From positions 106,742,436 through 106,806,435 of the forward strand of contig NC_056001.1 in assembly GCF_018446385.1 (NCBI RefSeq): a stretch of DNA of 64,000 bases, given 5' to 3'. A model generated the notes under the pieces. That model was not told where the DNA came from. It saw only the letters and a program-made list of their open reading frames with translations, and made no database searches. The first letter of the stretch is position 1. Every line of letters starts with the position of its first letter. This DNA comes from Zingiber officinale (Eukaryota > Streptophyta > Magnoliopsida > Zingiberales > Zingiberaceae). Of the stretch, positions 4,559-60,822 are shown one piece after another. The translations under genes and the position numbers were made by a program.

Positions 4559-5944
4559 TCACAAAGACCTCGGCGGCTTTTCTAACAATGCGGAGAGATA
4601 CACCTCGTCTTTCGACTTGAAAGAAATCACCCACTTGCGCTTCTTGTACCTAAACTGGAGGAACATGTATATGTAGTCATCAAGATCCTTTCTGCTACAG
4701 AAGAACTTGTCCAACCACAACAAGCCCCCCGGCCTTAGCACCCTGTCCCAGTCGAACAAGAAAAAGTCCAATAGTTGTAGATCAATCCAACCATCAAGGA
4801 ATACACTAGAGTGTATCAAATCCATGGTGTTGTCGAAGAATGGCAGCCTTTGATTAAGTGTTACATACAGAGGGATTAAACCCCTAAGTGCAATTGTCTC
4901 ACTAAAAGGAGCTCCCAAATTCAACGAAGTCGACACAATTGTCACATTCCACTCCCTCATTCGAGCCGCGAAGCTTCCTGTTCCAACACTAACATCCAAT
5001 CCAATCCTGATTTCCCCTGGTTTAACTGCAAGAACATCAGCAATCAGGAAGTCAGCTAGTGAGACATTGCTAACCCATCTCAGCTTCTCCTTCTCAAATT
5101 CAAAGCATCCAATGCATTTGGAGAAGCTCCTCCTCGGATTCCTACTCGACAAGCACTTGAAGTCCCTGCATTTGTAGTTACTCCACCTCACATTGCGATC
5201 GTCTGGCATAGTCCACAAGGACATGTTAATTGGAAGTGGCTTCTGATATAGGTTGGATGCCGGAGCCAAGCACCTTCTCCGGGGAAGAGGGTCACAACCT
5301 CCGAGCATCAACTTTTGTGCTAGATTCCAATCATCTTTGCAGTAGGAGCCCATGTCGTAATCCATATACTCCTCCAGTTCCTTTCTCATGAGGACACAAG
5401 CATGGCCAATGGTGTTGTAGGTTCTATTAGTACCATACACGCTCAACTTCCCGTCCTTGTTGCCCTTTCCGGTGATATACTTCCTTGTCTCCTCCACTGT
5501 GAAGAAGTTGATTAAGGGGTCCTCCACTGCATCCGGTTTAGGAATGCGAACAAGAGTGAGTGCGACGTGAACACTGTAAAGAGGTTGCATCACTTGCTCT
5601 TCGAGGAAGATTCTGAACTCGGTGTGAGTGATGTTTTTGACAGCGATGCTCCTTTTGTTCTTCAAGCTGGACTGAAGCTTGTTCTGGATATCAGAGATCC
5701 GGGCAAGGACCTCTTCGACACGGTCATGGAGAGCCGTAAGGTCATAGTCAGCATAGCCATTGCTCATCGTCTGGAATTTTTGGCAGTTCTCTTCATTGGC
5801 ATCGAGAAAGTATCCAACATGAAAGAAATGGTGAAGGCTTGCAACACTTAATATGACGAAGACGACCAAGATGATTTGCAGAATAACAATGGCTCTAGTG
5901 AACGAGGATCTGGGAATGTGCCGGGTCTCCATCCTCCACCTCAT
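4559..5944 (-). CDS. membrane-anchored SAM-dependent methyltransferase-like protein (At1g29790-like)
   Basis: An intact single-exon frame of 461 residues. Residues about 17-38 form one strongly hydrophobic segment after a basic N-terminus, so a type II signal anchor is likely, with the catalytic part in the Golgi or ER lumen. A coiled stretch (about 65-100) and a Cys-containing central region (200-285) follow. The C-terminal third is a Rossmann methyltransferase fold: LDVSVGTGSFA (316-326) is the glycine-rich SAM motif I, LPFFDNTMDLIHSS (367-380) the motif around the substrate pocket, and VLRPGG (402-407) the post-core motif. This layout fits the plant family of uncharacterised SAM methyltransferases typified by Arabidopsis At1g29790/At3g05390. 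The substrate is not known to me. The start could also be the Met at residue 5, which would not alter the anchor. Confidence 0.9.
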   Translation of the reverse strand: MRWRMETRHIPRSSFTRAIVILQIILVVFVILSVASLHHFFHVGYFLDANEENCQKFQTMSNGYADYDLTALHDRVEEVLARISDIQNKLQSSLKNKRSIAVKNITHTEFRIFLEEQVMQPLYSVHVALTLVRIPKPDAVEDPLINFFTVEETRKYITGKGNKDGKLSVYGTNRTYNTIGHACVLMRKELEEYMDYDMGSYCKDDWNLAQKLMLGGCDPLPRRRCLAPASNLYQKPLPINMSLWTMPDDRNVRWSNYKCRDFKCLSSRNPRRSFSKCIGCFEFEKEKLRWVSNVSLADFLIADVLAVKPGEIRIGLDVSVGTGSFAARMREWNVTIVSTSLNLGAPFSETIALRGLIPLYVTLNQRLPFFDNTMDLIHSSVFLDGWIDLQLLDFFLFDWDRVLRPGGLLWLDKFFCSRKDLDDYIYMFLQFRYKKRKWVISFKSKDEVYLSALLEKPPRSL

Positions 5945-8321
5945 ACGTAAATGAAGAAAATGATAGAAAGGAAGAACTCTCCTCTCTGTATCTCTATCTT
6001 TCTTACTTTCCTAACAGGCAATTCGTAGAGCAACTTGCAGGCACGAAAGAACTTCGCAAAAATGTCGATCCGACCCAAATTTCGACTCTCGGAACTCTTC
6101 AAAAAGAAACCATGCCCGAGGAGATCTAGCCCACAAAACGAGGCCTTCGACTCTTCGAATTCTACGAACAGAGAACTACGAACAAACGAAGGTACCTGCA
6201 GAGCAGAACAGAGCAAGAACGTGCAGAAAGAAATTTAGCATCGTCCAATGCATGCATTTATTGACGAGAAAGCTTCTGATTTGACGAAGTATGAGCCGAA
6301 TAATTAATGGACAGCCAGAATCTGGCTAGTTAGAATGGACTTTTTAGTAATTTTAAGGATTATTATTACTGGATATGTAAATAATATCATATTTTATAGG
6401 TCAATTATACATTTTCCATTTATTTTAATATTTAATTTTTAAAAATTATCACTTTATATTGATATTGATGATTAATTACATTTCCAATGACATGTATTTA
6501 TCAGAGACGTGCAAATTATCTCTCTATATTAATAACTAATTATATTTCCAAGATAACATGCATTTCTAAGATATATTCATTCATTAAATGAATCCTTTAT
6601 AAATACGAATTTTTAAAAATCTTAAAATTTTTCAAGAATATGAAATGTTCTTTTTTATTGCACATACTCTATTCTTAATGAACTGAAGTTGAAGAGTCTC
6701 GTATGTTTTGCAATGGTAAATCAAAATACATGGGAGACCATACTATCATTAAGAAACTCATCTTGGCCGCCAATTCTAAAAATTTCATTCTCTCAATAAT
6801 CTAATCCTCAATATCCTATTCTATCGTTTCCTTCCCTTTGCCAATAAATATTATTTTTTATTCTTATTTTTGAAATGTTATTATTTTTTATATAAATTTG
6901 ATACGGATTATGAGATATTTCTCTATGTGATAGGGCCACCTCCATAATTTATGGATCCAATCCAAATTTCCATAATATGTAACATCTCATAATACGGATT
7001 ATTGAATAAAATCAATCCTTATTTTAGGAGCTAATTAGTAATTTTTATATATAAATATTATTAATAATATTTAAAAGTAGTATAATTAAGAACGAATTAT
7101 TAATTTTTTATAGGGAAATATCATTAACCGTTTTTAATAAATTCTCTAAATGATTTCTAATAAACAAGATTTACGGATTTATTATATATAAATATTAGTA
7201 ACAATATTTAAAAGTAGTATAATTAAAAACTAATTATTAATTTTTATAGGAAATCTAGCGGGCCAGTTTCCAATAAATTCTTTCACTGATTTCAAGTTTC
7301 TAATAAATTTTCCAATTAATTTTAAGTAATTTCAAGAAAAGAATAAGTAATATTTTAAGTAAGGGCTAATTAGTAATTTATTAAATATAAATATTATTAA
7401 TAATATTTAATTAATTTTCTAACTAGTCAGATTCTGGTCATATAGATAATTATCATATTGTTGATCCAAAAACATATAACCAACTTGAATTTCATAGTTT
7501 AGTCCACCAATAACTAAGATTGCCGACTCGTACATAGGGATGATCATTCGATTAATTTAATATTAATTTTGTATAAATTTTTTTTATTATTATTTTAAAT
7601 AAATTTAATTAATTCGATGTTAACTGAAATAACTAATTCGATTAATTTAATTTTAATAAAATTTTGATTTAATTCAATTAGTAAATATTAAATTAATTTT
7701 TGATTAATCCGATTAATTTATGTATCGAATTAATCAAATGCTCACTTTCGACTCTTGGAAGGAGTTGGTCAATTTGTTGGAACTGATGTTGTTGGGGGGC
7801 GAGTTCACCCCTACATGCTCACCCCTACCCTACTCGTACGATAGCAATGCTATGCACATGGGATCATTGACTTTTGGAAGGAGTTAGTCAATTTGTTGGA
7901 ACTGATGCTGTTGGGGGAGTTAATTAATGCCTTGTCCAATCGGGAAGTATTCAATATTTCAGATTAGTTATCCATGTGATGTGTGTACACATAGTTGAAT
8001 GTATAATTTTTTGACAGGCTTAACTAGCAATTGACTTGATTAACTACATTGATGCATATCAGCAAGATATAGTTGAATGGATGAACGCAAACAGCATCCA
8101 AAAACAAAGTAAATAGACTCACTAGGATGCTCAAGTTCTAGTTTCGCCAATAAGTTGGTTTATGTACATCAGTCCGGTGTTCATGTTCATTTGTTAATTA
8201 CAAGTTAAAACATCTGCCAATGGCTCTCACCTTTCAAGCTAGCATTACAACAAAGCAGTTCAATAGCCAATGAACCCTGGTGAATTGGATGATACCGATA
8301 CCTTCTATTCTCACTCGAAGC
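5945..8321. other. AT-rich intergenic region with short repeats
   Basis: No gene is recognised. Positions 6340-7740 are very AT-rich with many ATTAATT runs. A 55-bp direct repeat occurs at about 7748-7803 and 7869-7922 (GGAAGGAGTT-GTCAATTTGTTGG core, offset about 121). A possible MITE lies between TAGGGATGATCATTCG (7536) and TGCTCACCCCTAC (7817); its ends are only loosely complementary. Confidence 0.5.
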
Positions 8322-39450: not shown

Positions 39451-39957
39451 TAGGGGTGTAAATGAACCAAGCCGCCCGTGAGCTATTCGAAGCTCGATTC
39501 GATAAAAACTCGTTTGAGCTCGTTTAATGAGGCTCGTTAAGATAAACAAACCAAGCTCAAGCTTCGCAATACTCGGCTCGTTAGCTCGTGAACACGTTTG
39601 TTAAGCTCATGAACCAACTTTTAAATTTAAAAAATAATAATTTTGATATTAAATTTATAGATTTTACACTCTACTTATGAAAAAATATAGACAAATATAT
39701 TAAATTTATTTATTATAATGAAATTATAAATTTTAGTAAGAATATTATAATTTTATCTAAATATATAATTTAATTTTTAATGAATATTTGGATTTATAAT
39801 TTATACTTATTAAGCTCGTTTAGGCTCGATAAAAGCTCGAATAAGCTCGTGAGCCATGAATATATTCGTTAAATAAAGCTCGAGCTCGGCTCGATTATAA
39901 ACGAGCCAAGTTCAAACATTTAAAAGTTCGGCTCAGCTCGGCTCGATTACACCCCTA
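39451..39957. mobile_element. hAT-type MITE, GCTCG-rich
   Basis: Ends TAGGGGTGTAAATGA (39451) and TACACCCCTA (39948-39957) are terminal inverted repeats. Flanks CTCTCAGC (39443-39450) and CTCCCAGC (39958-39965) are an 8-bp target duplication with one change, as expected for hAT. The body is full of GCTCG/CGAGC motifs and otherwise AT-rich, with no frame. Confidence 0.88.
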
Positions 39958-41294
39958 CTCCCAGCCAGTCGACCCCCGCCCCTGGTCTCTGGTATACCAC
40001 CATGGAGACCAGGTTTGATGCGGGTGATGTGTCACACCTTATTAACGCTTTTGACATCCCGCCCGACCACGAGATTGTCCTGGTCGGACCGTCCGATCGG
40101 CCACACCACCCGTCGACCGACACTATCTGTTTCTTCCGAGACCAGTTCGTGGTCGAGCTCCGGTTTCCCATTTATCCATTCATAATCGAAGTTTGTAATT
40201 TTTTTCGAATCTCGCTCGCCCAGCTCGTCCCCAACTCCTTCCGCCTGTTGTGCGGTGTGGTGGTGTTGTTCCGCGTGCACAACATCCCACTGACCCCTCA
40301 GGTCTTCCACTACATCTACCACCCCAAACAATCCGAGTTGGGCACCTATCTGTTTCAATCTCGTATTGGCCTGGTTTTCTTCAACAAGATGCCCTCCTCC
40401 AACAAACACTGGAAGGAGTACTTTTTTTTATTTAAGACTCCCCGAGCGGCCCCACTTCTGAACTCAATGGCAGACTGCCCTGCCACCCCCGCCCGAGCTG
40501 AAGAGGTGCAAGACTCAACCGGATTACCTCCACGTCACTAATATGTTGGTCGGGCCGAAGTTCAACATTCACAAGTTGTTACCAGAAGGCGTGATGTACA
40601 TGTTCAGGCTAAGTCCGAGCCGAGTGAAGCTCCCGAGCAACCTAGGTATGGAATTTCTCAATTTTCTTCCTTTGAGTCTAACTGATTTTGTTCTTCTCTT
40701 GCAGCCGACATCATGATGCGTGCCCGAGCAGCTGGTATAATGAAGACTAAGTAGGTCGAGATCGAAGCAGCTGCTGCTAAGGAGATGAAGCGGTTCGGCT
40801 TGACTCCGGTCGGCTCGCAAGAGGGCACAACTGGGGAAACTACAGTTGCGGGTGACAGGACCGCTGAAAGGACACCCAATGTAGGAGGGGCGATCGAACC
40901 AGGCTTGGTTCGCGACACCCCACCCGTCATTCCTGCTAAGGGATCGGGGTCCTCGGGCGAAGAAGTACCGCTCTCCCGCAAGAGGCGCTGAACGGAGGCG
41001 TCATCCCGATCTGCTACTTCAACCGTCCAAACTTCTGCGGGGGGAGGCGTCCCGTCCCCAGCCCTCGCAACAGTGGAGGCTACTTCCTCCGATCGGACTC
41101 CATCCATGGCTGAGCTACAGGAGCCGCTCTCCGTTCAACCAATCACCTCCCTTCCTCCGGCTAGACAGAAGATAACCTGATCAGCCATTCTTCTAGTATG
41201 CTCTGCCTAAGCCTCCGATCCTTCTGCCTCTACCCAATCGGCACCAGGCGAAAGACGATCCATCACCGCCACCCTTTGCCTACCGATTGAGGAT

Positions 41295-45530: not shown

Positions 45531-45856
45531 GTTCAGCGGTAACTTTGTAATCCTTGCTTTAGATTCTAATCCTGCAACCGAAGGACGTAGAAAAATGAAG
45601 ATTACATGGTATTAGTTACATCAGCGCACCTTTCACCCAGCTCGGTATGGCTGGAGGTGGTTTGCACTCCATGGACGCTCTAGCCTTCGTCCGTCCTCGT
45701 CCTCTAGGTAATAAGCACCCGACCGGAGCTTTCCCACGACCTTGAAGGGTCCGGCCCAAGGAGCCTCCAGCTTGGTGACATCCTCGACTGGCTTCATCTT
45801 CTTCCATACAAAGTTGCCGACATGAAAACACTACAAGAAAAAAGCTAAACAACAAC

Positions 45857-46220
45857 GCTTTTTTGGCGTTGTCGTATGTACTTAAAAGTGATGTTGTAGA
45901 AAGTCATATCAAAGACAACGCTTTAAAAGCGTTGTGGTTGGTCACAAAGACAACGCTTTTTAAGCGTTGTCTTTTCGTTCTTAAAAAGCGTTGTTATAGA
46001 TGCTGTTGTAAAAATGCACATATCAAAGACAACGCTTTAAAAGCGTTGTGGTTGGTCACAAAGACAACACTTTTTAAGCGTTGTCTATTCGTTCTTAAAA
46101 AGCGTTGTTAAAGATGCTGTTGTAAAAATGCACATATTAAAGACAACGCTTTAAAAGCGTTGTGGTTGGTCTCAAAGACATTATTTTTTAAGCGTTGTCT
46201 TTTATTACTTAAAAACGTTG
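45857..46220. repeat. CACTA left subterminal palindromic array
   Basis: Three units of about 115 bp start with ATCAAAGACAACGCTTT (45907, 46022) and ATTAAAGACAACGCTTT (46137). Each contains the palindromes ACAACGCTTTAAAAGCGTTGT and ACAACGCTTTTTAAGCGTTGT. Such motifs serve as binding sites for the TNPA-type protein in CACTA elements. Confidence 0.9.
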
Positions 46221-46469
46221 TCTTTTTAAATTTATAAAAAATAGTGTTTTTCTTAATTAAATAGCAAAAATTATAAAAAATACTCAAAATTTACATATAA
46301 TTGAATATCCACAACCACAATCATTTTTATAATAAGACTATTTAACAAATAAATAAAACTTTATATTATACAAACAAAATGTATACATATTGATCCACAA
46401 ATTAAATTTGTATCATACAAGTTATCCTTAACTTCATGACAATAATTTTTCAAACACACAAGTTTTACA

Positions 46470-46605
46470 AAACCTCATCATTGACTAACCACTGTTGTTG
46501 GTGTCCATCGCATGGAATTGCTTCTTTAAGTCCAGCAATCTCTTCTTCTGAAAGGCTTTCAGCTATCACTCTTAGAGCCATCTTCTTCAACTTGTCATCA
46601 TCACA
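46470..46605 (-). pseudogene. captured calcium-dependent protein kinase (CDPK) fragment
   Basis: The minus strand reads DDDKLKKMALRVIAESLSEE and EEIAGLK, the junction/autoinhibitory segment and first EF-hand entry of plant CDPKs. After a one-base frame change the reading continues as FHAMDTNNSG, the start of the EF-hand 1 loop. Only about 45 codons are present, without a kinase domain, so it is a fragment of a host gene captured inside the CACTA. Confidence 0.85.
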
Positions 46606-46959
46606 CCTGGGGTTGTAGGCAATCAAGAAATTTTGTATGAAAACTTTCATACATGTAAATCTCGTACTAAATAATATGTCAATGTTATATATACATGTAA
46701 TTCATACCGTAAGTGTGTTTATATCGTAACTGACAAGTTTTCTTTAGGGCCAACTTCTACTCAAGCTCTTTAAACACTGCATCAAAATAAAAAAATTGGC
46801 ATTAGTTCTGTGCTAAATGAAAATCATATTTAGAGGAAAAAGCGGGAGTGCTGTAGATGGATATGTTAACCAAGCATATTAATGTTTGACCTGTCTTTAC
46901 AAGTTCTAAGCATATATATTAACCAAGCATATAACCTAAGAGGAATAAGTTACAAAATG

Positions 46960-47566
46960 CTACTTGATGTTTGACCTGTCTTTATTGGATTTTGCGGCCC
47001 CGGTCTTCTTGTAGTCAGGCACAATGCAATACTTGATGTTGACTCTACCTTTGCAGTTGTTTCGGCTTGAGGAGTGGCAAAGAATGGTGGAGTAGAGGAT
47101 GGATTTCAGGTATTCATCCGTGCCATCGAGGAAATGACTCCAGTAGGTGACTAGCATGTTGACCAGGGCATGCTTGGAGAAGATGACTTGTTTCAGAAGC
47201 CTTTTAGATCAAAGATACGAAGTGCATTGTTATAAAACTAGATGCACGAACACTTGCTTATACGGTTCTTGAAATAAAATACATTCGTAACCGTCACTAG
47301 CCCAAGCTCAATAAGGAAAATTCACGGTAAATGTGCATAGTATACCTCAGATACTGCAGATGATAGGGAAGGCCAGAAGACAGTTTGACGCAAATATTGA
47401 GATTGCCCAAGCCAATCCATGGTACTAATCCTGACAGCTCCTCCAAATCGCACTGACTTGATTGTGTCCACCCATCCTTGTTCATCAGCTTGGAACCTTT
47501 GAAATGAAAGTCTGCATTGGGTACATGGAAAAAACAACAAAAGGGAGGATAAATGATAGCCACCAA
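46960..47566 (-). other. unidentified exon-like segments inside the CACTA
   Basis: Two open minus-strand stretches look coding in composition: about 46960-47205 (FSKHALVNMLVTYWSHFLDG and RVNIKYCIVPDYKK) and about 47340-47540 (KLMNKDGWTQSSQCDLEELS, then GLVPWIGLGNLNICVKL). They may be further captured host exons. I cannot name the source gene. Confidence 0.4.
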
Positions 47567-48998
47567 CCTAATTGTTCACAAATATCTGTATAAGTTATTA
47601 AGGGTGTTCATAGAAGTTGATCCTTTAGCCGTGTCTGTTAGATGGTCAAATCTAGGCGCCAACTCAAAAATGTTGGCGTCCAAGTGTTAGTGTTCAACTA
47701 CTTCTGATTTTCTTCATCTTTGAATTGTTAAATACATAGGGTATTTATAGGGAATACTCAAGATGTATCTAAATAAATACATGAACCAATATTAAATGAC
47801 ATACATTCATCATCCGAAGAGTCATTCATGAATCCTCCAATATTCATGCTCCAGATGACCATACATTAGATTATAAGTCCAATTAATTTGATTGCAAGGT
47901 TGTAAACAGTCCTTGAGGGCTATTGATAGTGATTCCAGTACGTACTGGAAAATAATGGAACAAACCTATGAAACAGCTATCAAGGGATTCACTTCAACTT
48001 CCCTAAACCAAAGAAGAAACAGATGGATTACAAAAGAAAACAATTTGCACCATCAAACTGAAACTTATAATAAGCCTTAATAAATTAATGAAAAAAGAAT
48101 TGTTTAGAAGTTCACTGAGAAACATATGAAAATACAACAAATGCAACTGCAAAAAAAAAATAAAAAACTAGTATCCAATTAACTTTTTTTATACTTTCGG
48201 ATCAAAAGGTCAAATTTATATACTTTGGTTCATGTTCAAGCAAGAGGATAACAATCTCATCGACAGTTAGTATTTCCTTTTAATATAGAACACTAAAAGA
48301 AGGAATATCAATGATGAAACAAACTGAAAATGCGAGCTACTGAGGCGTGAGCAATCTGCTTGAACAAGGTAATCATGCAGCGTTGGAACTCTGTCGTGAG
48401 CATCAAAGACCAAATATTACCAAATATTAAGATCACTGACAAACCAAATAATACCTTATTTTTAACAGCTATCTAGAGGATCTGGCTTTTTGACTTGAAG
48501 TTGGTTCAAAGAAGACAAATCAAATATACAAATACTAAGATGAAAGCATAATGAAGTAGTTAACTTTTTCTACTTTACCTGATTATAAGATCTACAGCTT
48601 CTTGCTCAATATTTTGCTGCAAGAGTAATTATTAGAAAAACAAACCCAATAGTGGAACAAAAGCTAGATAAAGAAACTAGATAATTTACACTGACAGAAC
48701 TTTACAGAATAACATATAATACAGTGCTTTGTACTTGCATATTAATCCAGAAAACATCCTTTCACCTAAGTGACAATTTTTCCAAAACATCATCATTCAC
48801 AAAACATCATCATTCACTAAAAATTTTCACAAGTTTTTAAACTTCAGTGACAACTTTTCTTTGGGGTCAATTGCTCAAGGTCGATCTGGTAACTATGCAC
48901 TGCATCAAAAAAATTGGCATTAACTATGATTCCACCAAAAAAAACCACCATTCCATGAACTTAAATCTAAATAGAATTATGGCAACTATCATTCCATA
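47567..48998. other. CACTA interior without recognised genes
   Basis: AT-rich sequence with short frames only; probably introns or the 3' region of the minus-strand transposon gene. Confidence 0.4.
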
Positions 48999-51875
48999 CC
49001 TATTCATAAATATGATCTTGTATGCACTCCGCCAACTCGGACCGAACCTCATCAATTTGTTCACGAGAGTACCCTATTTTTGTGAACTGTGAGCATACAC
49101 AATTTATGTTAATGGAAAAAATAATCAACACCGATCACTTTGCAATTTTAAATAGTTTATGTCAAATAATTTGAGATAAGCTAAATAATGTTACTATTGA
49201 TTGCAGCGAATCTCTCTCAATAGTCTCAACTTCTTCAATAATTTCTCTCATAAATCGCATCACAAAAAAACCACATTGTTTCGCATCCGGTTGTTGAGGA
49301 GCCTATATATAGTAATTAGAGTCAAATTGTTAATGAAAATTATACACATTACAATATATGTTAAACAAAAGTACACATACCTTAACTACTTCCCACTTAA
49401 CATTTTTCCTACCTTTCCTTCCCTTGGTTGAATTAAACAATTTTAAGGCCCTTCATACGTTAAGAATATTTGTTAAATAAGATTTTTATTATAATAAATA
49501 TTTACTAAAAGAAATCTGAACTCACATTTCCATTACGTATTTTGAATCATCATCGCGAATGCGGCAACTTAGGGAATCCAGCAGGTAAATAGCATCCTTG
49601 TAAGGTTCAATAACACTAAGATTCCAATGGAAACTAGGCAAATACATAGGATTAGATCATAAAATTGAATAAATTAAATTATCGAAAGGAATCAATTGAA
49701 AGTGATGTTTTACTTCTTGCTTACCCGACATTACATGGCACTAACACTAGTTGATCTGTTGATGCACTTGTCAGCTTATCTGCTAAAAGAGTTGCCCTTT
49801 GATTCAGGGTTTCAAGCTTAACTGATTTGTCTTGTGCCGTTTTTGCCAGATATGGGAGTTTGTGAGGATTCATAAATCTGAATTTCTTTGTCTTGGTATC
49901 TTTCACCATCTTTTTATACAGACACCTATCATTGCAAAGAAAAAAAATATTTAGATACTAAATAATAAAATTTAGATACAAAACACTCATAATAAGTTGG
50001 AAAAAATAATGATCACTCATAACACTAAGTTATGGCTGATGATAGTAACATCCATACATGAGAACTTACTATGAGCAGTCTTGCATATTAAACATACCAG
50101 AAATGTATACATGCAAATTCTTTTATTTCTTGAGGACAAGCACATTTAAGATACTTAAAAATATACAAGAAAAAAGATATGAGCAAAGTACTTCCTGTCT
50201 AGAAGAACAAATGGCATAAGGCAAACATTAAGGGCCGGTTGAAAATGAATGAGCTATATTTATGTAAAGTGTACCACATCAATTGATATTAGTAAACCTC
50301 TCAATAGAAATGATGAACTATTAACTTAATGAGAATAACATGGTATGAGAAAATTACTAGAAGTTGAATTTTTCAAGAGTAAACTTGTTCACACAACAAT
50401 ATTAGTAAACTTCTTGCAGTTCAAATCCGGGATTTTCTGTCTTGCTAGATATTAGAATTTCCCAGCAAACATAAAGCAATGCAGTAATTTCCCAGCATAA
50501 GTAAAGCAATGCAGTTGCAACTGAGAAAATAATATTTAGATACTAAATAATAAAATTTAGATACAAAACAATCATGTGGATTAAAAAATAATGATCACTC
50601 ATAATAAGTTGGTGAAATTGTAACAATAAACCATAATAAGTTGCTAAAATTGGGAAGCAAACATGTGATGAAAAAGTTGTTGAAATTGCTTAAATAAACT
50701 TACTTACCATATGTAGGCAACGATCAAATTTCCTGAAATTGACTCCAAATGATACAAAGAATTGATGTCCTCAAGGTCAAGAAAAAGTTCACAATCTTCA
50801 TCAAACACTTCATTATCTAAGCACATTGATATACATTTTCCTCCATCTAGAGCATGCTATAGAAACCTAGATACAAGGTCAAGAACGTTTCAAACCTGGT
50901 TGATTTATCTGCATCTGTTCTATAGAAACTCTAGCTATCACCTCTAAGTTCTCAATGCATTCACCATTAATTGATTGCAGCAAAAGGAAACCACTGCATG
51001 TAATAGACTTTTCGACTTGATCTCTTCTCCAAGTAAGAACATTTCAAACCTAGATACCTAGTAAATCCACATCTGTTCTATATAAACCCGTCACCTCTAA
51101 GCTCTCAATGCATTCATTCACCATTTACTTCCTCAATACATGCTCTAGTACTGAGAATTCAAGCTATGCAAGGAATGGCTGTTAAACTCCTCATTACACT
51201 GCTTGCCTTGGCTTCCTCACGCAAAGGGTATGCATGCATGCAACTTTACTCTCAAAAACTAGAAGATATATTGAAGTCATTATCAGAAGAACATGAAAAT
51301 TTACTTACAATCTTCTGTACTGTGTCCACCAAATCTTCACCTTCAAACTCTCCTCCTTTGTTGGCGCGTCCTTTCTTCCACATAATAGCTCTATTGATGT
51401 CATTATCATCACATAATTCAGTCCCCTACAACAAAGAAAAATCAAATAACAAATGTGAAATAATTTAATGTGAATCAATTAGAGGGTTCTTAGAGGAAAT
51501 ATATTTTAAAAATACTTACAATTTCTTCAGCAAAGCGTGCATACCCTTTGCGTGAGAGTCGATGAGGATATCTATTTTTTTTCCTTCGCTCTTTTTGTTG
51601 ATCACTGAGTTTCTAGTTATTTCAAACAGGTGACATATCAAATTTGAATAATACATAATGAATTATGATCGAATAGTTTCAAAAGAAAAAATTTAGAATC
51701 TTACAATGAAATCTTCAGAAATGCGACTAATGACAAACGCACGCCAATCTTCTCTTGTAATTTCAAAGCCAACAGGTGGCTCATTCAACTCCTCAGGTTT
51801 GTCACGCCTGCTTAAAATAAATTTTTGGGTGAGATGGGTCTTGTATTGCCTCCACTTACTGTTTGCAGACCTCAA
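48999..51875 (-). CDS. Transposase_24 plus ULP1-like protease gene of the CACTA
   Basis: Several exons on the minus strand follow GT-AG rules and stay open. 51875-51705 (SKWRQYKTHLTQKFI, ITREDWRAFVISR), 51612-51531 (RYPHRLSRKGYARF) and about 51425-51310 make the end of a Transposase_24 domain. About 50810-50708 (EDINSLYHLESISGNLIVAY), 49926-49733 (VKDTKTKKFRFMNP; QLVLVPCNVG), 49636-49528 (FHWNLSVIEPYKDAIYLLDS: catalytic His and Asp), about 49445-49383, 49302-49207 (APQQPDAKQCGFFVMRFM: conserved Gln and catalytic Cys) and 49088-48999 (GYSREQIDEVRSELAE, then stop) make a ULP1/C48 protease domain. All triad residues are present. The fusion is a common accessory gene of plant CACTA elements and may act on SUMO-like modifiers. 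The true start is not certain and may lie upstream. Confidence 0.8.
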
Positions 51876-52022
51876 TTTTTGGGTGAGAGGAACACACGGA
51901 GCTTGAGCGCTTGAGCTGCTTCAAGAAGAACAAGAATCGAGCGAGATGTGGAAACAGAGACCATTGAGGCAAACACTCAAACACGTTACCTGCATTGTAT
52001 AGGTTGGTTGATCCAAATTCAA

Positions 52023-53231
52023 ATGGATGAGGAGGTGGTGTTGGATTTGAACCAGATCAGGGCGGTTCGCGTCCTGGGCCGTGGAGCCATGGCCTCGGTC
52101 TTCCTCGTCAGCGCCGCACCCGGCAGTCGCCTCCCCACGCTCTTCGCCCTCAAGGTGTTCGACAAGCAGTCCGCCGCCAAACCCCACGCTCTCCGCCGCG
52201 CCCGCTGGGAGCTATCCCTATTGTCCCGCCTCTCAGCCGCTCCCGGTGATCATCACCACCCGTTTCTCCCTTCCCTCCTTGGCTCCGTCGAGACGCCGGA
52301 CCTCCTCGCTTGGGCGATCCCCTTCTGCCCCGGCGGCGACCTCCACGCCCTCCGCCGCTCCCTTTCTCCTTCCAACGAGGAGGCGTTCTCCGCGGACGCG
52401 ATCCGCTTCTACCTCTCGGAAATCGTCACCGCTCTCGCCCACCTCCACTCCATGCGCGTCGCCTACCGCGACCTCAAGCCAGAGAACGTCCTCCTCCGCT
52501 CATCCGGCCATATTATGCTCGCCGATTTCGATCTCTCCCGCCACCTCCCTGCCAGATCGACCACCCACTCCTCCCTTCCTCCTCCACTTCCCTCCGACAA
52601 CCACAGCCACGCCCCCCGGAGGAAACTCACACGCGTGTTCTCCTTCGGCGCCGCGGACGACCAGATAAAGAAAGGGAGGTCGGCGAGAGTCTCCCCGGCG
52701 AGTCGCCGTAGGACGAGTTCCTCGTCCATCTCGAAATCCAGAGAAGGATCCGGTGGTGACGACGAGCGGTCGTTCTCGTTCGTGGGGACGGAGGAGTACG
52801 TGGCGCCGGAAGTGGTGCGCGGCGAAGGGCACGGCTTCGCGGTGGACTGGTGGGCGCTTGGGATCCTGGCGTACGAAATGGCATACGGACAGACGCCCTT
52901 CCGGGGGCGGAACAGGAAGGAGACGTTGCGCAACATTCTTACGCTGCCGCCAATGTTCCCAGGCCGGCGCCGCACCGATCTCACTGACATTATCGAGCGG
53001 CTCGTGGTCAAGGACCCGGAGAGGAGATTAGGGTTTAGTGGGGGTGCGGAGGAGGTGAAGGCGCACCCTTTCTTCGATGGGGTGAAATGGGAGCTTTTGC
53101 CAGAGGTGGCGCGGCCTCCGTTCCTGGCGCCGGTAATTTTACCTTTCTTTCTTCCGTTCCTCCTACTCTCGAATCTGCTCTGCGAGGAAGGAACTAAGAT
53201 CGAAGGGTTCAGAGGAGTTGAGGAGCCGTGA
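52023..53231 (+). CDS. captured AGC-VIII-type Ser/Thr protein kinase (UCN/OXI1/PINOID relatives)
   Basis: A long GC-rich frame (open from 51948; Met at 52023 gives the natural start MDEEVVLDLNQIRAVRVLGR). Kinase subdomains in order: GRGAMASVFLV glycine loop, FALKVFDK Lys, RARWELSLLSRL helix C Glu, YRDLKPENVLL catalytic loop, ADFDLSRHL (DFD in place of DFG, the mark of plant AGC-VIII kinases), a long basic Ser-rich insertion before the activation segment, GTEEYVAPEVV, DWWALGILAYEMAYG, KDPERRLGF and HPFFDGVKWELL. Everything needed for catalysis is present. After RPPFLAP at about 53131 a GTAATT donor suggests an intron, so the C-terminal hydrophobic motif would be on a later exon or lost. The gene lies wholly inside the CACTA, divergent from the Transposase_24/ULP1 gene about 150 bp away. 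Confidence 0.85.
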   Translation: MDEEVVLDLNQIRAVRVLGRGAMASVFLVSAAPGSRLPTLFALKVFDKQSAAKPHALRRARWELSLLSRLSAAPGDHHHPFLPSLLGSVETPDLLAWAIPFCPGGDLHALRRSLSPSNEEAFSADAIRFYLSEIVTALAHLHSMRVAYRDLKPENVLLRSSGHIMLADFDLSRHLPARSTTHSSLPPPLPSDNHSHAPRRKLTRVFSFGAADDQIKKGRSARVSPASRRRTSSSSISKSREGSGGDDERSFSFVGTEEYVAPEVVRGEGHGFAVDWWALGILAYEMAYGQTPFRGRNRKETLRNILTLPPMFPGRRRTDLTDIIERLVVKDPERRLGFSGGAEEVKAHPFFDGVKWELLPEVARPPFLAPVILPFFLPFLLLSNLLCEEGTKIEGFRGVEEP

Positions 53232-53369
53232 GAAGATTAGGAAGGGTAAGCTGACTTTGATTGAGGAGATGGGGAAATGCGAGATTAGGGATCTCGACTT
53301 GGAGGAGTTGGGTCGGCGTGAGGAGTTTTGCGTGAGGAGTTTGGGTCGAGATTAGGGTTCAGAGGAGAT

Positions 53370-53560
53370 CACGCGGCAAGGAGAGGAGAAGGCGCTCGTG
53401 GAGAGGAGTGGAGAGGAGAAGGCGCTCGTGGAGAGGAGAAGGAGAGGAGAAGGCACTCGTGGAGAGGAGAAGGAGAGGAGAAGGCACTCGTGGAGAGGAG
53501 TGGAGAGGAGAACTCGTGGAGAGGAGTGGTGAGGAGAAGGCGCGCGCGCGTTGAGGGTTT
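53370..53560. repeat. GAGGAGAAGG minisatellite near the CACTA right end
   Basis: Repeats of GAGAGGAGAAGGCGCTCGTG and close variants, about six to eight units, lie after the kinase frame. The purine-rich strand is plus. Confidence 0.85.
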
Positions 53561-54673
53561 AGAGTTTAGCAAAGCGAGGGCTGCGAATTTATTTTAAGTG
53601 AGTTTAGGGGAAACATACACAACACTTTAAAAAACGTTTTTTTAAAAAAATGTTGTCTTTGACCATAAACAACAACACTAAAGACAACACTTCATTAAAA
53701 ACCGTTGTCTTTAGTAAAAAGTAAATACCATAGACAACGCTTTTCACTAAAAGCGTTGTAAAACAAAGAACGACAACGTTTTTATTAAAAAGCGTTGTCT
53801 ATTGGGTGTTGTTGAATGCAAAAATTCTTGTAGTGAAAGATCTAGGTATTACCCGCTTGTTGTACAGTTGAGTAGGGGCCGAGAGAAAACTTTCTTGTAG
53901 AGTTGATCCCCAATCAGTGTGAATCTTCTTGCTCTCCTTCTCAACTGGTGAGCTTCCTCTCGATCGGACGGTGTAATTCTCGATCACAGGAACTCTGTCA
54001 GTGTTGTCCTCCAGTCGTTTGGGAAGGTGAGTCCTTCCATCCGATCAACGTGTGCCACCAGCGATACTTGCTCAATCGGCTGCGATATAACAATAGGCGA
54101 TATGGAGCTGGCTAGCTTAACCAGCTCATCTGCCACTTGATTTTCCGCTCGGGTATCTTCTGAATAACCACCTCCCGGAAGTTGGCTTTTAGTCTTTCAA
54201 AGGCTTCGGCGTAGAGCTTGAGTCGAGTATTACTTATCTCAAATATTCCTGTGAGTTGCTGAGCGGCTAACTGGGAATCCGAGTGAATCAAGACCCTGAT
54301 AGCTCCAACATGCCGAGTAGCTTGCAGGCCTGCTATGAGCGCCTCGTACTCGACCTCGTTATTAGTTGCCCGATATTCTAGCCGAACAGACAGATGCATC
54401 TGCTCTTCCTGAGGGGAGATCAGTAGTACACCGACTCCGTTCCCTTGCCGAGTGGATGATCCGTCCACATATATTCTCCAAGTGTCTTCTGACTCGAGAT
54501 TCTGTACTTCAGTGACAAAGTCGACCAAGGATTGTGCTTTGATGGTCGTTCGGGGCTGATACTGTATGTCGAACTCACTAAACTCCGTTATCCATTTGAT
54601 CAGCCGCCCGAATGCCTCTGGATTGAGGAGGACTCTACCAGAGGGTTGCTTGTCATTACTATGATCGTATGCG

Positions 54674-55264
54674 TAGGGATGTAAACGAGTCGAACCGAGC
54701 CGAACAGTATCAGGCTCGAGCTCGGCTCGTTTAAGTTATATTCGGGCTCGAGCTCGGCTCGAGCTCGAATCGAGCTTTTATCACAAGGCTCGAGCTCGGC
54801 TCGTTTTAGAATTATCAGGCTCGCGAACAGTTCGAGCTCGGCTCGTTATTAGCTCGATTATCAAAGTTAACGAGCCTAACTCGTTAAGCGAGCTCGGACT
54901 CGTTTTCGGGCTCGTTTAGAGCTCGTTTTTGGCTCGTTTTAGAGCTCGTTTTTTGACTCATTTAAGGCTCGTTTTAGAGCTCATTTTTTTGGCTCGTTTT
55001 AGAGCTCGTTTTTTTGGCTCGTTTAAGGCTCGTTTTAAGGCTCGATTTAAGGCTCGTTTTTTTTTGCTCGCGAGCATATAAACGAACATGTTCGCGAGCT
55101 CACGAGCTGAATATCCTTAAGCTTGAGCTCGGCTCGATAAAACTGTCGAGCTCGAAATCGAGCTCGAGCTCGGCTCGATAAGATAAACGAACGAACTCGA
55201 ACGAGATTTTTACCGAATCGAGCTCCGAATAGCTCGCGAACCGTTTGGTTCATTTACATCCCTA
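54674..55264. mobile_element. hAT-type MITE with perfect 8-bp target duplication
   Basis: Ends TAGGGATGTAAACGA (54674) and TTCATTTACATCCCTA (55249-55264) are inverted repeats. The 8-bp flanks CGTATGCG (54666-54673) and CGTATGCG (55265-55272) are identical. The body is made of GCTCGTTT/GAGCTCGG motifs in a loose array and belongs to the same family as 39451-39957. Confidence 0.93.
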
Positions 55265-56178
55265 CGTATGCGTGAGGAAGATGATCAAAGCCTTCGAGCG
55301 ACGAGTACCAGCGCAAAGACAAGTTTCTCGAGACCAGTATAACGGGATTCAACATCTTTTAAGACATAGCTTAGGAAGTACACTAGTTGTTTCTCGTCGT
55401 TCGGTCACACCAACGCCGAGCCGACAGCGTGCTTGGTCGAAGATAAATAAATGTGAAGCGGCTCGCCGGCCTCTGGCTTAGCCAATACATGCAGATAATT
55501 CAGATATGCTTTTAGTTCTTCAAATGTCTTGTCGCACTCTTCGTCCCATTGGAACTTGATAGCTCGGCGCAGTATCTTGAAGAAAGGGAGGCTTCAGTCA
55601 ACAGACTTGGAGATGAATCGAGATAAGGCAGTTATCCAACCGGTGAGGCGCTAAGTTTCCTTCAAATTTCTTGGCAGTGGCATATCTTGCAGCGCCTTTA
55701 CCTTACTAGGGTTCGCCTTGATGCCCTGCTCGGTGACGATATAGCCGAGGAATTTCCCACCCTTTGCACCGAATAGACATTTGCTTGGGTTCAACTTAAT
55801 TCCATATGTGCAGAGCGTCTGGCAACTTTCTTCTATATCAGCACAGAGGTCGCCAACTCAGAGGGATTTGATGAGTATATCGTCGATATATACCTCCATG
55901 TTCCGTCCGATCTGCTACCAGAACACCTTATTCATGAGCCTTTGGTAGGTAGCCCCAGTATTCTTTAGTCCGAACGATATCACATTGTAGCAATAGGTGT
56001 CATCTACTGTGATGAAACTCACCTTCTCTTGATCCTCCCGGGCGAGCGACACTTGATGATACCCTAGATACGCGTCCAGCATGCATATCATCTTGCACCC
56101 AGCTGTGGAGTCCATCGTCTGGTCGACCCTTGGCAGTGGGTAGAAGTCCTTTGGGCATGCTTTATTGAGGCTTCGAAA

Positions 56179-58139
56179 TGTTAGCTAGAGCCCTAGAGCC
56201 AATCATTTGATGATTGTATTTTGGGCTTGTTGTATCATATTCTATATAAATAAAGACATTTGATTTTTGGTTATTATACTTACTTGTATTGGTGCCAAAT
56301 AAACTAAGTATAATAACGTCCTTGAGTAGAAGGTTTCACCTATATCAATCGGTTAGTTGAACCGATAGTGAGATGATATAGAGAACACTACTCTTAATCA
56401 TTCCTAGTCGAGTATTAACATTCAGGGACAATGTTAATGCAATAAGACTAGCATGTAGGTCAACTCGATGACTTGATCTCACAAGTCATGGATATAGAGA
56501 TATCAAGTTGACACATGGGTATGCATTGGAGAATGTATACTGAATGACCCGCCATGAAAATGTATCATGGATCGTTATATGAGTGTCATATACTTTCTCA
56601 TGTAGCTATTAGTATGACTACTAGTCCTTAGACCTGAAGTCACCATGGTTCCCTACATAAGGAGTTATGTACTTTGGTTTTGTCAAACGTCACCCGTAAC
56701 TGGGTGGACTACGATTACTGGGTATGTAACAAATTATGCGGAGGGATGTGAGTGATGTAGATGAGATCTATCCCTCCTATATGATGGGAGAGACATAGGT
56801 ATTCTTGATAGAGTGAGACCACGAAGTGCATGGCCATGCCCAAATGAGTCAATATGAGATATTGAGCTCATTTGATTGAGTGAGTCTACTTGGAGTTCAA
56901 GATTTAGATTGATTAGAGGATGACACGGTCTATACCTCACATTGATCAATCTATATGTCTAGTATAGAAGGACACTTGTCATATATTGTGAGGAGTCGCA
57001 ATTAGTAGTCACAAGGTGATGTTGAATCTCAACATTATTGTAACTTGGGTAGTAATGATGTATTGCTAGATACTGCTCATTACTTATGTTTCTAAATGAG
57101 TTTAGGGGCATTGTCAACGTTACAAGAAACTATTGGGTCACACACAAAGAACAAGTGGATGGAGATTAGGTTCATATGATGAACCAAGAGGATTAGATTC
57201 ATTTGATGAATCAAATTGGATTAAGAGTAATCCTAATTGGGCTAATTGAGTTGGACTCAAGTTGATTCATGTGTTCAATGAGTCTAATTTAGATTATGAC
57301 TCATTGAATCAATTTAATTAAATAAATTAAATTCATTATATTAAATTGGCTTGAATTAAATGGTTGGATTAGATCAACCATGAGAGAGATTAAGTCAAGT
57401 TTGACTTGACTTGAGAGGAAGATGAAGAGTCAAGTTTGACTTGACTTTATGCCACCTCATTGGTGAGTTGGCATTAAGTGGACCAATGATGATGCTTCAC
57501 ATCATCATGGTTACTTAAGTGAAGTGCCACCTCATGGGAGTTACCAAGAGTTGTGACTCTTGGTATCCCATGGAGGTTACAAACCACTTAATTAGATTAA
57601 AAATAGTTTCATTTTGTAAGTGTAACTCTCATTCAAGTGATCTTCCTCCTCCTAAGATCTCTTCTTGCTCCTTCTCTTCTCTTGGTCGTGGGTTTCAAGC
57701 AAGGGAGAAGAAAGGAGAGTGAATCTAATCCAAGAAGAAAGGTTAGTGAAAGTCACATAGAGATTTTAGAGGAGTGTGTTCTCTTCTTTTCCTTTCTTCT
57801 TCTTCCAATCCTACCCGAGAGCCCTAGAGAGTGCTAGCACACTTGTGGTGCTCTCTTCTCCATCCTTGTGTGTTAGAGAACACATCTTGTTCGTGTGGAT
57901 ACTTCTAGAGGATTGTCTACGTTGACAATCACGAGATCCGGCGTACCTTGGACGAGCAGGATTCGCGAAGGGCACGCATCGAAGGTATAAGATTTTCTCC
58001 ATGTAGATCTAAGTGTAGATCTAGGTAAACTCGTATTCATATGTTTTCAAAATTTTTCTTCGCACGGATCCGTTGGCTAAGGGGTTTCGGGGTTTCCGCG
58101 ACGCGAAAAAGCTATTTTCGCGGCCCGAAAAACCCAACA
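56179..58139 (+). mobile_element. Copia solo LTR (1.96 kb) with perfect target duplication
   Basis: Begins TGTTAGCTAGAGCCCTAGAG and ends AAAAACCCAACA. CGAAA (56174-56178) and CGAAA (58140-58144) are a perfect 5-bp duplication. No interior retrotransposon sequence is present. It is inserted in the reverse transcriptase region of the Tat element. Confidence 0.92.
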
Positions 58140-60822
58140 CGAAAGTCGATGCAAATCCTCCACTTGTTGCCAGGCTTTGAGACTAGTACTACATTTGCGG
58201 GCCGGCTCGGGAACTGAACTTCTCTGATGTGGCCGACCTCTAATAGTTTCTCTACTTCAGCTCGGATGATCTGATTATGCTCGGCGCTGAAGTCCCTTTT
58301 CCTTTGCTTCACCGGTTTGACATCCGGTCGAACGTGAAGCTCATGTTGCGCTACGCTCGGGGAAACGCCGGGTAGTTCATGTGTGGACTAGGTGAAGACA
58401 TCACTATTTTGCTGAAGACATCTAATCAGCTTGTCCTTCTGCTCCACTTGCAGGTCGGCAGCTATGAAAGTCGTTGCATCTGCTCGACCAGGGTGTATCT
58501 GTACCTCTTCTTGGCATCCGGTAAAACGTGAAGCTCATGTTGTGCTACGCTCGGGGAAACACCGGGTAGTTCATGTGTGGACCAGGCGAAGACATCACTA
58601 TTTCGCTGAAGACATCTAATAAGCTTGCCCTTCTGTTGCACTTGCAGGTGGACAGCTATGAAAGTCGTTGCCTCTGCCCGGGCAGGGTGTATCTGTACCT
58701 CTTCTTTTTCTTCATAAACTAGAGTAGGAGGTTTTTCGATTATGACATTTACCTCGTGTCGGGGAATTTTCCGAGCGGACTTAGCCTCCGCCTTCACCAT
58801 CTCGACGTAACAGTGTCGGGCAGCCAGTTGATCTCCTTTGACTTCCCCGACCCGACCCTCTACGGGGAACTTGATCTTCTGGCAATAGGTCGAGAGTACT
58901 GCCCGGAATTCGTTGAGGGTCGGCCGGCCCAGGATGACGTTATAGGATGATGGGGCATCTACGACAATGAAGGTGGTGATCCTGGTCCTTCGAAGTAGCT
59001 CCTCTCCGAGTGATATGGCCAACCTTGTCTGACCGATCGGCTGGACCTTGTTGCCGGTGAACCCGTACAAAGGGGTTGTCATCGGTAGCAACTCGACCCG
59101 ATCGATTTGGAGCTTGTCGAAGGCCTTCCTGAAGATGATGTTGATCGAACTCCCTGTGTCAATAAATATGTGATGAATAGTGTAGTTGACAATTACCGCA
59201 CTGATGATGAGGGCATCTTCGTGCGACACTTCGATCCCATCAAGATCCTTGGGATCAAAGCTGATTTTGGGCCCATTCGCCCTCTCTTGGCTACAGTCTA
59301 CAGCATGGATCTTCAGTCGTCTAGCATACGATTTTCGGGCTCGGTTGGAATCTCCGCTGGTTGGTCCACCAACTATGATGTTGATTTCACCCCGAGCGGC
59401 GTTGCTTCAATTTTCCTCCTCCCGAACGGAGTGCCCGACTTGCCTGTGTGAGGCTGGGGCGCGGTCGTCACTCCTTGCTTGATGATGATGTCGCCGCTCG
59501 GGTGACTGCCTGATCTCCTCTCGTAGTTCAGTACTTGGCCACCTATATCGCAGTTCGGGGGAAGGTGATCGACGACGATGACTCCTGGGAGTCGGCTAGG
59601 CGACTACAGGAACTCTGCGGCAGTCTCGGGTGTTGTGGGTCGCGGATTGATGGAAGACACGGAACATAAAAGTCCCTACCTTTCCCTTGGACCTTGGTCG
59701 TTCGGCTGCCACGTGTTGGACAGTGTGTGACCTTGCTTCCTAATGTAGTCGTGCCACATCGGCTCAGGGCCCTCTTGGAGGCTGGTGGCTGTTTGGCGGT
59801 CTTCGTTCGGCGTGCACAATCGGTTCTGATGGCGCTTCTTTCCTTCAGGCCGCCTGAACTTCCTCCACGTTGATATACTCGCTGGCCTTCTTTAGCATAT
59901 GTTCGTAATCGCGGGGCGGCTTCCTGATGAGCGAGTGGAAGAAGTCTCCGTCGATGAGCCCTTGGGTAAAGGCATGCATCATAGTTTCGGATGAGACCGT
60001 GGGGATGCCCATGACCGCCTGGTTAAAGCGTTGAATGGAGGCCCGTAGAGTCTCTCTCAACCCTTGCTTCATAGAGAACAGACTGACGCTGGTCTTCTGA
60101 TAGCGTCTGCTGCTCACGAAGTGGTGGAGGATGACCGTCCTGAAGTCCTTGAAGCTCTGAATCGATCTGTTCAACAATCTTCGAAACCAATGTTGTGCTG
60201 AGCCAGACAACGCAGTGAGGAAGACTCGGCACTTAACTCCATCCGTGTACTGATGAAGGGTTGTAGCGTTGTCGAATTTGTCGAGGTGGTCGTCCGGATC
60301 AGTCGACCCGTTGTATTTGCCGATCGCCAAGGGTGCGTAGTGCCTTGGCAGAGGATCTTGCAGAATTACCTCATAGAATTGGCGGTTGATCCGTTCGGGA
60401 GATGAGTCGGCTTGGGGCGCTTTACCTTTCCTTGCGCCCCGAGCGGGAGGTTTGTCCGATGAGGACCGGTCCCGATTCGCTTACGCGATTTCAGATGGCG
60501 TCTGGAACAAGGCCCGATAGAATGGAATTGGGGTGGGTGGCACCTCCACCTACGTGCCGGTTAGACCCTTATTTTGTCCCCATATGGAAAGTTATTCCGA
60601 CCGGTCTTCTTGCGCAGCTCGGCCCCCAGATGCTGAGGTTGCTTGTTGCATCATCCGATCGGCTAGCGCCTTCTGTTGCTGCTCTATTATCTTGGCCGCT
60701 CGAGCCTGTATGAGCGCGTCGAGTTCCTCTTGAGAAAGCGGCACAGTGTGCTGGCACCCAACTTCTTTCATCTCCTTGGCTCGGATTCAGGTGCGTTCCC
60801 ACAGACGACGCCAATTTGATCC

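Follow-up and report, generated by a model that had tools for sequence, protein, structure and literature searches.

The window analysed here, a 64,000-nucleotide stretch of the Zingiber officinale (ginger) genome (contig NC_056001.1, positions 106,742,436 to 106,806,435), contains a CACTA (En/Spm-type) transposon of 8007 bp that carries part of an AGC-VIII protein kinase gene. The comparisons below indicate that the kinase DNA was very probably acquired in a recent, single capture from a gene on contigs C7/C8 by a non-autonomous CACTA element, and that it then spread through the genome as a passenger. The assembly searched comprised 211 contigs and 3,090,333,446 bases, with the window on contig 16, and the donor, the recipient family, both capture junctions and the detected descendants are readable in this one genome.

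By direct reading, the transposon is complete with both termini intact. Its terminal inverted repeats (TIRs) match over 11 bp, with CACTACAAGAA starting at 45829 and the inverted copy running up to 53835, and the element is flanked by an AAA target-site duplication (TSD). The features of the borders are as follows (here and below, no strand is given for features without one).
45826 to 45828: left TSD, AAA (direct reading; empty site with single AAAA).
45829 to 53835: CACTA transposon (direct reading, TIR comparison, empty-site pattern).
45852 to 46205: left subterminal repeats, ACAACGCTTTTTAAGCGTTGT type inside three 114-bp units.
53613 to 53802: right subterminal repeats, same ACAACGCTTTTTAAGCGTTGT-type motif as at the left end.
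53836 to 53838: right TSD, AAA (direct reading; empty site).
The subterminal repeats occur in direct and inverted order near both ends and, together with the CACTA-starting TIRs and the 3-bp TSD, are features of the CACTA superfamily. When the two flanks were joined with a single AAAA run, as in a site free of the insertion, the resulting pattern was found at 125 places with one to three mismatches and at none exactly (100 of the 125 places were listed; the reversed-pattern control gave 0 places). These matches and their single AAAA therefore fix the element borders and the duplication. Three further copies have perfect 3-bp TSDs (AGT, TCA and ACA), so that duplications were found in 4/4 copies for which both ends were read, out of 20. 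The identity of the flanks indicates that the element is nested in a repeated Ty3-gypsy-like retroelement.

Stop to stop, the open frame of the kinase spans 438 codons; it encodes 402 amino acids from an ATG at 52023.
52023 to 53231, plus strand: kinase reading frame, 402 amino acids (donor codons 1-372 followed by 30 transposon codons).
The frame matched PF00069 (Pkinase) in Pfam with an expect value (E) of 8.9e-47, and among the best 60 of 315 solved structures the top-scoring ones were AGC kinases (RSK, S6K, SGK, AKT and PKC). The catalytic motifs GRGAM, ALKV, YRDLKPEN, DFDL, SFVGTEEYVAPE and DWWALG were all found. DFDL replaces DFG at residue 168, where the window protein reads DFDLS, and a 77-residue insertion precedes the SFSFVGTEEY activation loop. 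We take the kinase to be a likely member of the UCN/UCNL (AGC2) group, a placement suggested by protein size. The G+C content is 64.7% in the kinase (52023-53132) versus 33.1% in 46241-51880. DFDLS and an insertion of 36-118 residues before SxSFVGTxEY are described as hallmarks of plant AGC-VIII kinases (PMC3499706); the transposon copy has both, but not the C-terminal tail of the family, which the donor retains. The DFDLS magnesium loop and the insertion (77 residues here) before the activation loop SFSFVGTEEY link the kinase with plant AGC-VIII kinases of the AGC2 group with UCN and UCNL, whose lengths of 404 and 408 amino acids are near the 412 of the donor; the transposon copy differs in having lost the 40 C-terminal residues of the donor (PMC3499706). 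The original prediction, of CACTA ends with an AAA duplication at 45829-53835 enclosing a GC-rich open frame with all catalytic subdomains including DFD, is borne out by these results. Its description of the kinase gene as near-complete is accurate for the N-terminus and the catalytic core, but the final 40 codons of the gene itself are gone.

A genome search with the kinase DNA gave 42 matches and identified the donor loci at C7:89303880-89305028 and C8:78015908-78017056, whose match to the window is restricted to a single segment.
51888 to 53138, plus strand: captured host DNA, 1251 bp, with 99.1% identity to the donor on C7 and 98.8% to that on C8.
The genes on C7 and C8 are intact, with 412 codons each, and are apparent homologues. 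The transposon copy holds the 135-bp leader and codons 1-372 of the donor without an intron, with 30 codons of transposon sequence standing in for the final 40; left behind in the donor was a TATA-like stretch, read by eye, that directly precedes the leader. The original prediction had called for a search for the parental locus, whose absence elsewhere, together with synteny of the kinase in related species without the CACTA ends, would have pointed to an element inserted around the gene or mis-bounded; an intact parental gene is present on both apparent homologues. We also considered the related gene on C15/C16 as the donor and rejected it, given that its identity is only 84%, compared with 98.8-99.1% for C7/C8 over exactly the captured segment, and we regard it as a paralogue. 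This paralogue also keeps the C-terminal tail, and the ratio of nonsynonymous to synonymous substitution rates (dN/dS) between donor and paralogue is 0.25, indicating ordinary constraint. The two C7 flanks of ~1.5 kb match the C8 flanks at 96% and 90% and, in pieces, resemble those of the C15/C16 paralogue; no 11-bp CACTA end was found within the 1.5 kb flanks of either donor copy. Gene pairs of close similarity on C7/C8, C13/C14 and C15/C16, and large contigs seen up to C22, suggest that the contig set represents 11 chromosome pairs in two haplotypes. A haplotype-resolved ginger assembly with 11 homologous pairs, of 3.09 Gb before Hi-C scaffolding, has been described (PMC8342452).

Both junctions between donor and transposon DNA could be read.
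51820 to 51834, plus strand: apparent source of a 15-nt filler, AATTTTTGGGTGAGA (sequence comparison).
51874 to 51888, plus strand: second copy of the 15-mer AATTTTTGGGTGAGA at the 5' capture junction (templated filler; junction at 19 places, control 0).
53135 to 53138: AATT microhomology at the 3' capture junction, common to the donor and the kinase-free transposon (20 places, control 1).
53139 to 53835: right end common to kinase-free relatives (junction string at 300 places, control 0).
In the kinase-free relative L036, the transposon runs straight on from GACCTCAA, 1144 bp before the shared right end. In the window, the AA of that GACCTCAA point opens the second AATTTTTGGGTGAGA copy, with the first copy 54 bp leftward, and donor DNA then follows; the captured DNA occupies the position where L036 has other sequence. 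Repair with template switching leaves templated filler and microhomology, and the filler next to the microhomology in this element informs how CACTA elements acquire host DNA.

The same junctions recur throughout the genome. The 3' junction string was found at 20 places, all of them among the kinase-DNA matches (19 exact and 1 with one mismatch; reversed control 1), and the 5' string at 19 places (18 exact and 1 with one mismatch; control 0); the copy outside the 19, L030, is truncated on its 5' side. L029 and L033 are one place, and L033 was dropped before counting. Because the junctions are common to 20 (3') and 19 (5') insertions, they reflect one capture. Right flanks were compared for 19 of the 20 copies, and no two represent the same site; L020, which has a mutated right end, stood outside this comparison, and its flank was only inspected visually against the others. 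The flanks of L010 and L026 have a 92% repeat in common, in opposite orientation, and those of L011 and L014 are weakly similar. So far as these comparisons show, the 20 insertions appear to be confined to one haplotype each and none to be allelic to another; this takes C1/C2, C3/C4 and so on to be homologue pairs, and an allelic insertion without the kinase would escape notice. Allelic empty sites were sought through the flanks of two other copies and none was obtained, the flanks themselves being repeats; in each of the two flank searches, the 39 listed matches end no more than about 10 bases from the element border, except for the self-match and, in one search, one short match. No kinase junction was found on C15, although the methyltransferase gene of the window (described below) has a partner there. 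Two copies are structurally unusual: L020 (C2:156406959-156408299) has the right terminus GTAGCG versus GTAGTG, together with R149H, and may be immobile, and L010 (C14:51052856-51054196) has an internal deletion joining the equivalents of window positions 48147 and 50822.

The recipient belongs to a CACTA family with kinase-free members and retains traces of what was probably its own gene, in the orientation opposite to the kinase.
49165 to 51890, minus strand: probable remains of the transposon's own gene (weak domain pieces, all below curated cut-offs).
49165 to 49302, minus strand: Peptidase_C48/Ulp1 piece (E 0.0033, sub-threshold).
49525 to 49656, minus strand: Peptidase_C48/Ulp1 piece (E 0.097, sub-threshold).
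51493 to 51612, minus strand: Transposase_24 piece (E 0.041, sub-threshold).
Other weak, unrelated domain matches also occurred among the 15 open reading frame (ORF) pieces of the element that were scanned (10 + 5; some small ORFs lay outside the scan), and none of these pieces matched Transposase_21 (TNP2, PF02992). The element is therefore apparently non-autonomous and is presumably mobilised by relatives. The left interior of the element was found at 99-100% identity at 40/40 scored places, including the window and several other kinase copies. At least four places in the genome (on C1, C2, C3 and C4) carry a stop-free TNP2 domain ~1.8 kb inwards from the kinase-free right junction, within open frames of 592 (C1), 237 (C2), 603 (C3) and 273 (C4) codons; these placements come from setting 150 scored Transposase_21 matches against the 100 junctions listed among the 300. 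The right end also varies in length, from 640 to 717 bp among the kinase copies, with the kinase-free L036 and L037 differing there too, and contains GGAGAAGGCGCTCGTGGAGA-type repeated units at window positions 53378-53538.

We propose that a non-autonomous CACTA element gained a 1251-bp piece of an AGC-VIII kinase gene whose locus now lies on C7/C8, when a break or gap inside the element was repaired and the copying strand would have switched to the kinase locus. The product would then have transposed to at least 20 sites, probably with a TNP2-type transposase supplied in trans by relatives such as those above. The kinase frame would be a passenger that remains open owing to its youth. Because this frame is antisense to the element's own gene pieces, any kinase transcript would be more likely to arise by read-through than from a promoter of its own.

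Several comparisons bear on the age of the capture. The consensus of the copies differs from C7 at 7 and from C8 at 11 of 1251 sites (0.6-0.9% divergence from the donor alleles), and C7 differs from C8 at 12. When polarised by the C15/C16 paralogue, derived states were found to be common to the copies and either allele, and the source was therefore an allele of about the same depth; at site 52177, the copies have retained the paralogue state, from which both donor alleles depart. The ancestor of the copies has just two changes of its own, L323I and a synonymous one. We rejected an old capture maintained by selection, as the consensus is no further from the donor alleles (7 and 11 sites) than these are from each other (12). 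Right ends diverge from their consensus by 0-0.62% per copy (mean ~0.3%, 19 copies), and at a substitution rate near 1.3e-8 per site and year the spread may date back a few hundred thousand years. The 402-codon frame is intact in 14/20 copies, 9/20 encode the identical protein, and we consider it open because the capture is young and there has been little time for breakage. The other six are broken or shortened: three have frameshifts, two have deletions (one of 45 nt, in frame, and one of 137 bp), and one, L030, is truncated and, without its start, yielded no translation. Catalytic residues have also changed in intact copies, with R149H (the YRD arginine) in two and G21R (the glycine loop) in one. 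The non-allelic descendants provide a system for asking how fast a captured frame decays.

We next weigh the possibility that selection maintains the open frame of a working mobile kinase, providing an extra or dominant-negative kinase in many copies. The intact frames and identical proteins accord with it, as do all the catalytic motifs retained in the window copy, and several substitution counts weigh against a purely passive passenger. Among the 48 coding changes in the copies, 25 are nonsynonymous versus 30.9 expected under a context-matched neutral model in which distinct changes were treated as independent (one-sided P=0.054, not significant); the deficit is borderline, and the approximate omega of 0.6 would allow weak constraint. 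(In L025, two neighbouring changes that were read one at a time give a false stop at S71, which was counted as nonsynonymous.) All four changes of the window copy from the consensus are synonymous. The dN/dS was low, 0.096, between the window copy and C7 (2 nonsynonymous and 7 synonymous changes), and was 0.226 for the consensus versus C7 (2 and 3) and 0.509 versus C8 (6 and 4), although these three pairs rest on few changes, including donor-side ones. On the other side, 7/20 copies equal the consensus over the captured segment and are uninformative on selection, the two changes on the ancestral branch (one of each kind) give no power there, and the changes at conserved catalytic positions occur in frames that are otherwise intact. 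The six damaged frames, the lost C-terminal tail and the uncaptured TATA-like stretch likewise argue against function. We consider a selected, working kinase improbable, and the copies appear to offer no strong argument for function. Of the options raised by the original prediction, recent capture is the one favoured by the data, given the identified donor, sharp junctions and low divergence. Selection on the frame gains no significant support, and at 0.6-0.9% divergence of the consensus from the donor alleles an open frame is to be expected.

Alternatively, the copies could act through RNA, with the donor kinase gene silenced or tuned by small RNAs made from their read-through or antisense transcripts. 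The kinase is opposite in orientation to the Transposase_24 and Ulp1-like pieces, such that transcription of the gene they derive from, if it starts at the right end, would run antisense to the kinase, and the identity to the donor is ~99% over 1251 bp. However, the position of the promoter is assumed in this argument, and the ordinary constraint on the donor is no direct test of an RNA effect. We rate this alternative as improbable as the preceding one. Taking both kinds of product together, it is only slightly less doubtful that a tail-less kinase is expressed from some of the 20 insertions and acts as a constitutive or interfering AGC-VIII kinase, or that antisense RNA acts on the donor; if so, the differing sets of copies on the two haplotypes would be a source of heritable signalling variation in a clonally propagated crop.

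That CACTA ends were mis-paired around a resident kinase gene is scarcely credible; nothing was found in its favour, and it was rejected, since the kinase-transposon junctions are common to 20 (3') and 19 (5') places, three further copies have matching target duplications and the native gene is intact on C7/C8. Equally far-fetched is the reverse direction, in which the C7/C8 gene derives from the transposon: high identity is symmetrical, but the resemblance of C7 to the C15/C16 paralogue continues past the captured segment, into the C-terminal tail and pieces of the flanks, and no 11-bp CACTA end was found within 1.5 kb on either side of C7 or C8.

Capture of host gene sequence by CACTA elements is already documented, and recent capture in ginger is a case of Pack-CACTA-like transduplication. 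Pack-CACTA elements, described by Catoni et al. 2019 (as cited in PMC13317346), have in common with this element the CACTA ends, captured host coding DNA, no TNP2 found and copies of the chimeric element (PMC8903248; PMC13317346); here too the donor is identifiable, and the same captured DNA occurs at 20 places and was mobilised as a unit. In the mechanism described for them, neighbouring insertions fuse after aberrant excision (PMC13317346, PMC8903248). In contrast, the captured piece in ginger is bordered by filler and microhomology and sits within a transposon that is otherwise recognisable, and, in our reading, template-switch repair would fit these junctions better than the neighbouring-insertion model. 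The ginger element also differs in keeping weak, sub-threshold remains of its own gene (Transposase_24 and Peptidase_C48) and in holding one nearly whole kinase frame, compared with pieces of 163 and 58 bp in a described Pack-TYPE example. Tgm-Express1, a soybean CACTA element, likewise carries host gene sequence, but as five unrelated fragments with spliced chimeric transcripts, whereas the ginger element has one intronless segment (PMC1947982). CACTA-like elements of Chenopodium also contain captured host fragments, some with Transposase_24 and Peptidase_C48 domains as here; one captured piece described there is an 80-bp AP2 fragment, versus 1251 bp with a full catalytic domain in ginger (PMC8978399). 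Literature searches for ginger with CACTA and for intact Pack-MULE copies gave no match, from which we do not claim absence from print, and the word CACTA is absent from the main text of two ginger genome papers.

Outside the element, the window contains the following frames.
4559 to 6010, minus strand: 483-codon frame, probably of an ordinary host gene, with Methyltransf_29 and Methyltransf_11 matches and a 99% partner on C15.
39924 to 40538, plus strand: frame matching Transposase_28, a putative gypsy-type transposon family.
54112 to 60480, minus strand: Ty3-gypsy-like frames right of the CACTA element, with RNase H, gag and aspartyl protease (weak).

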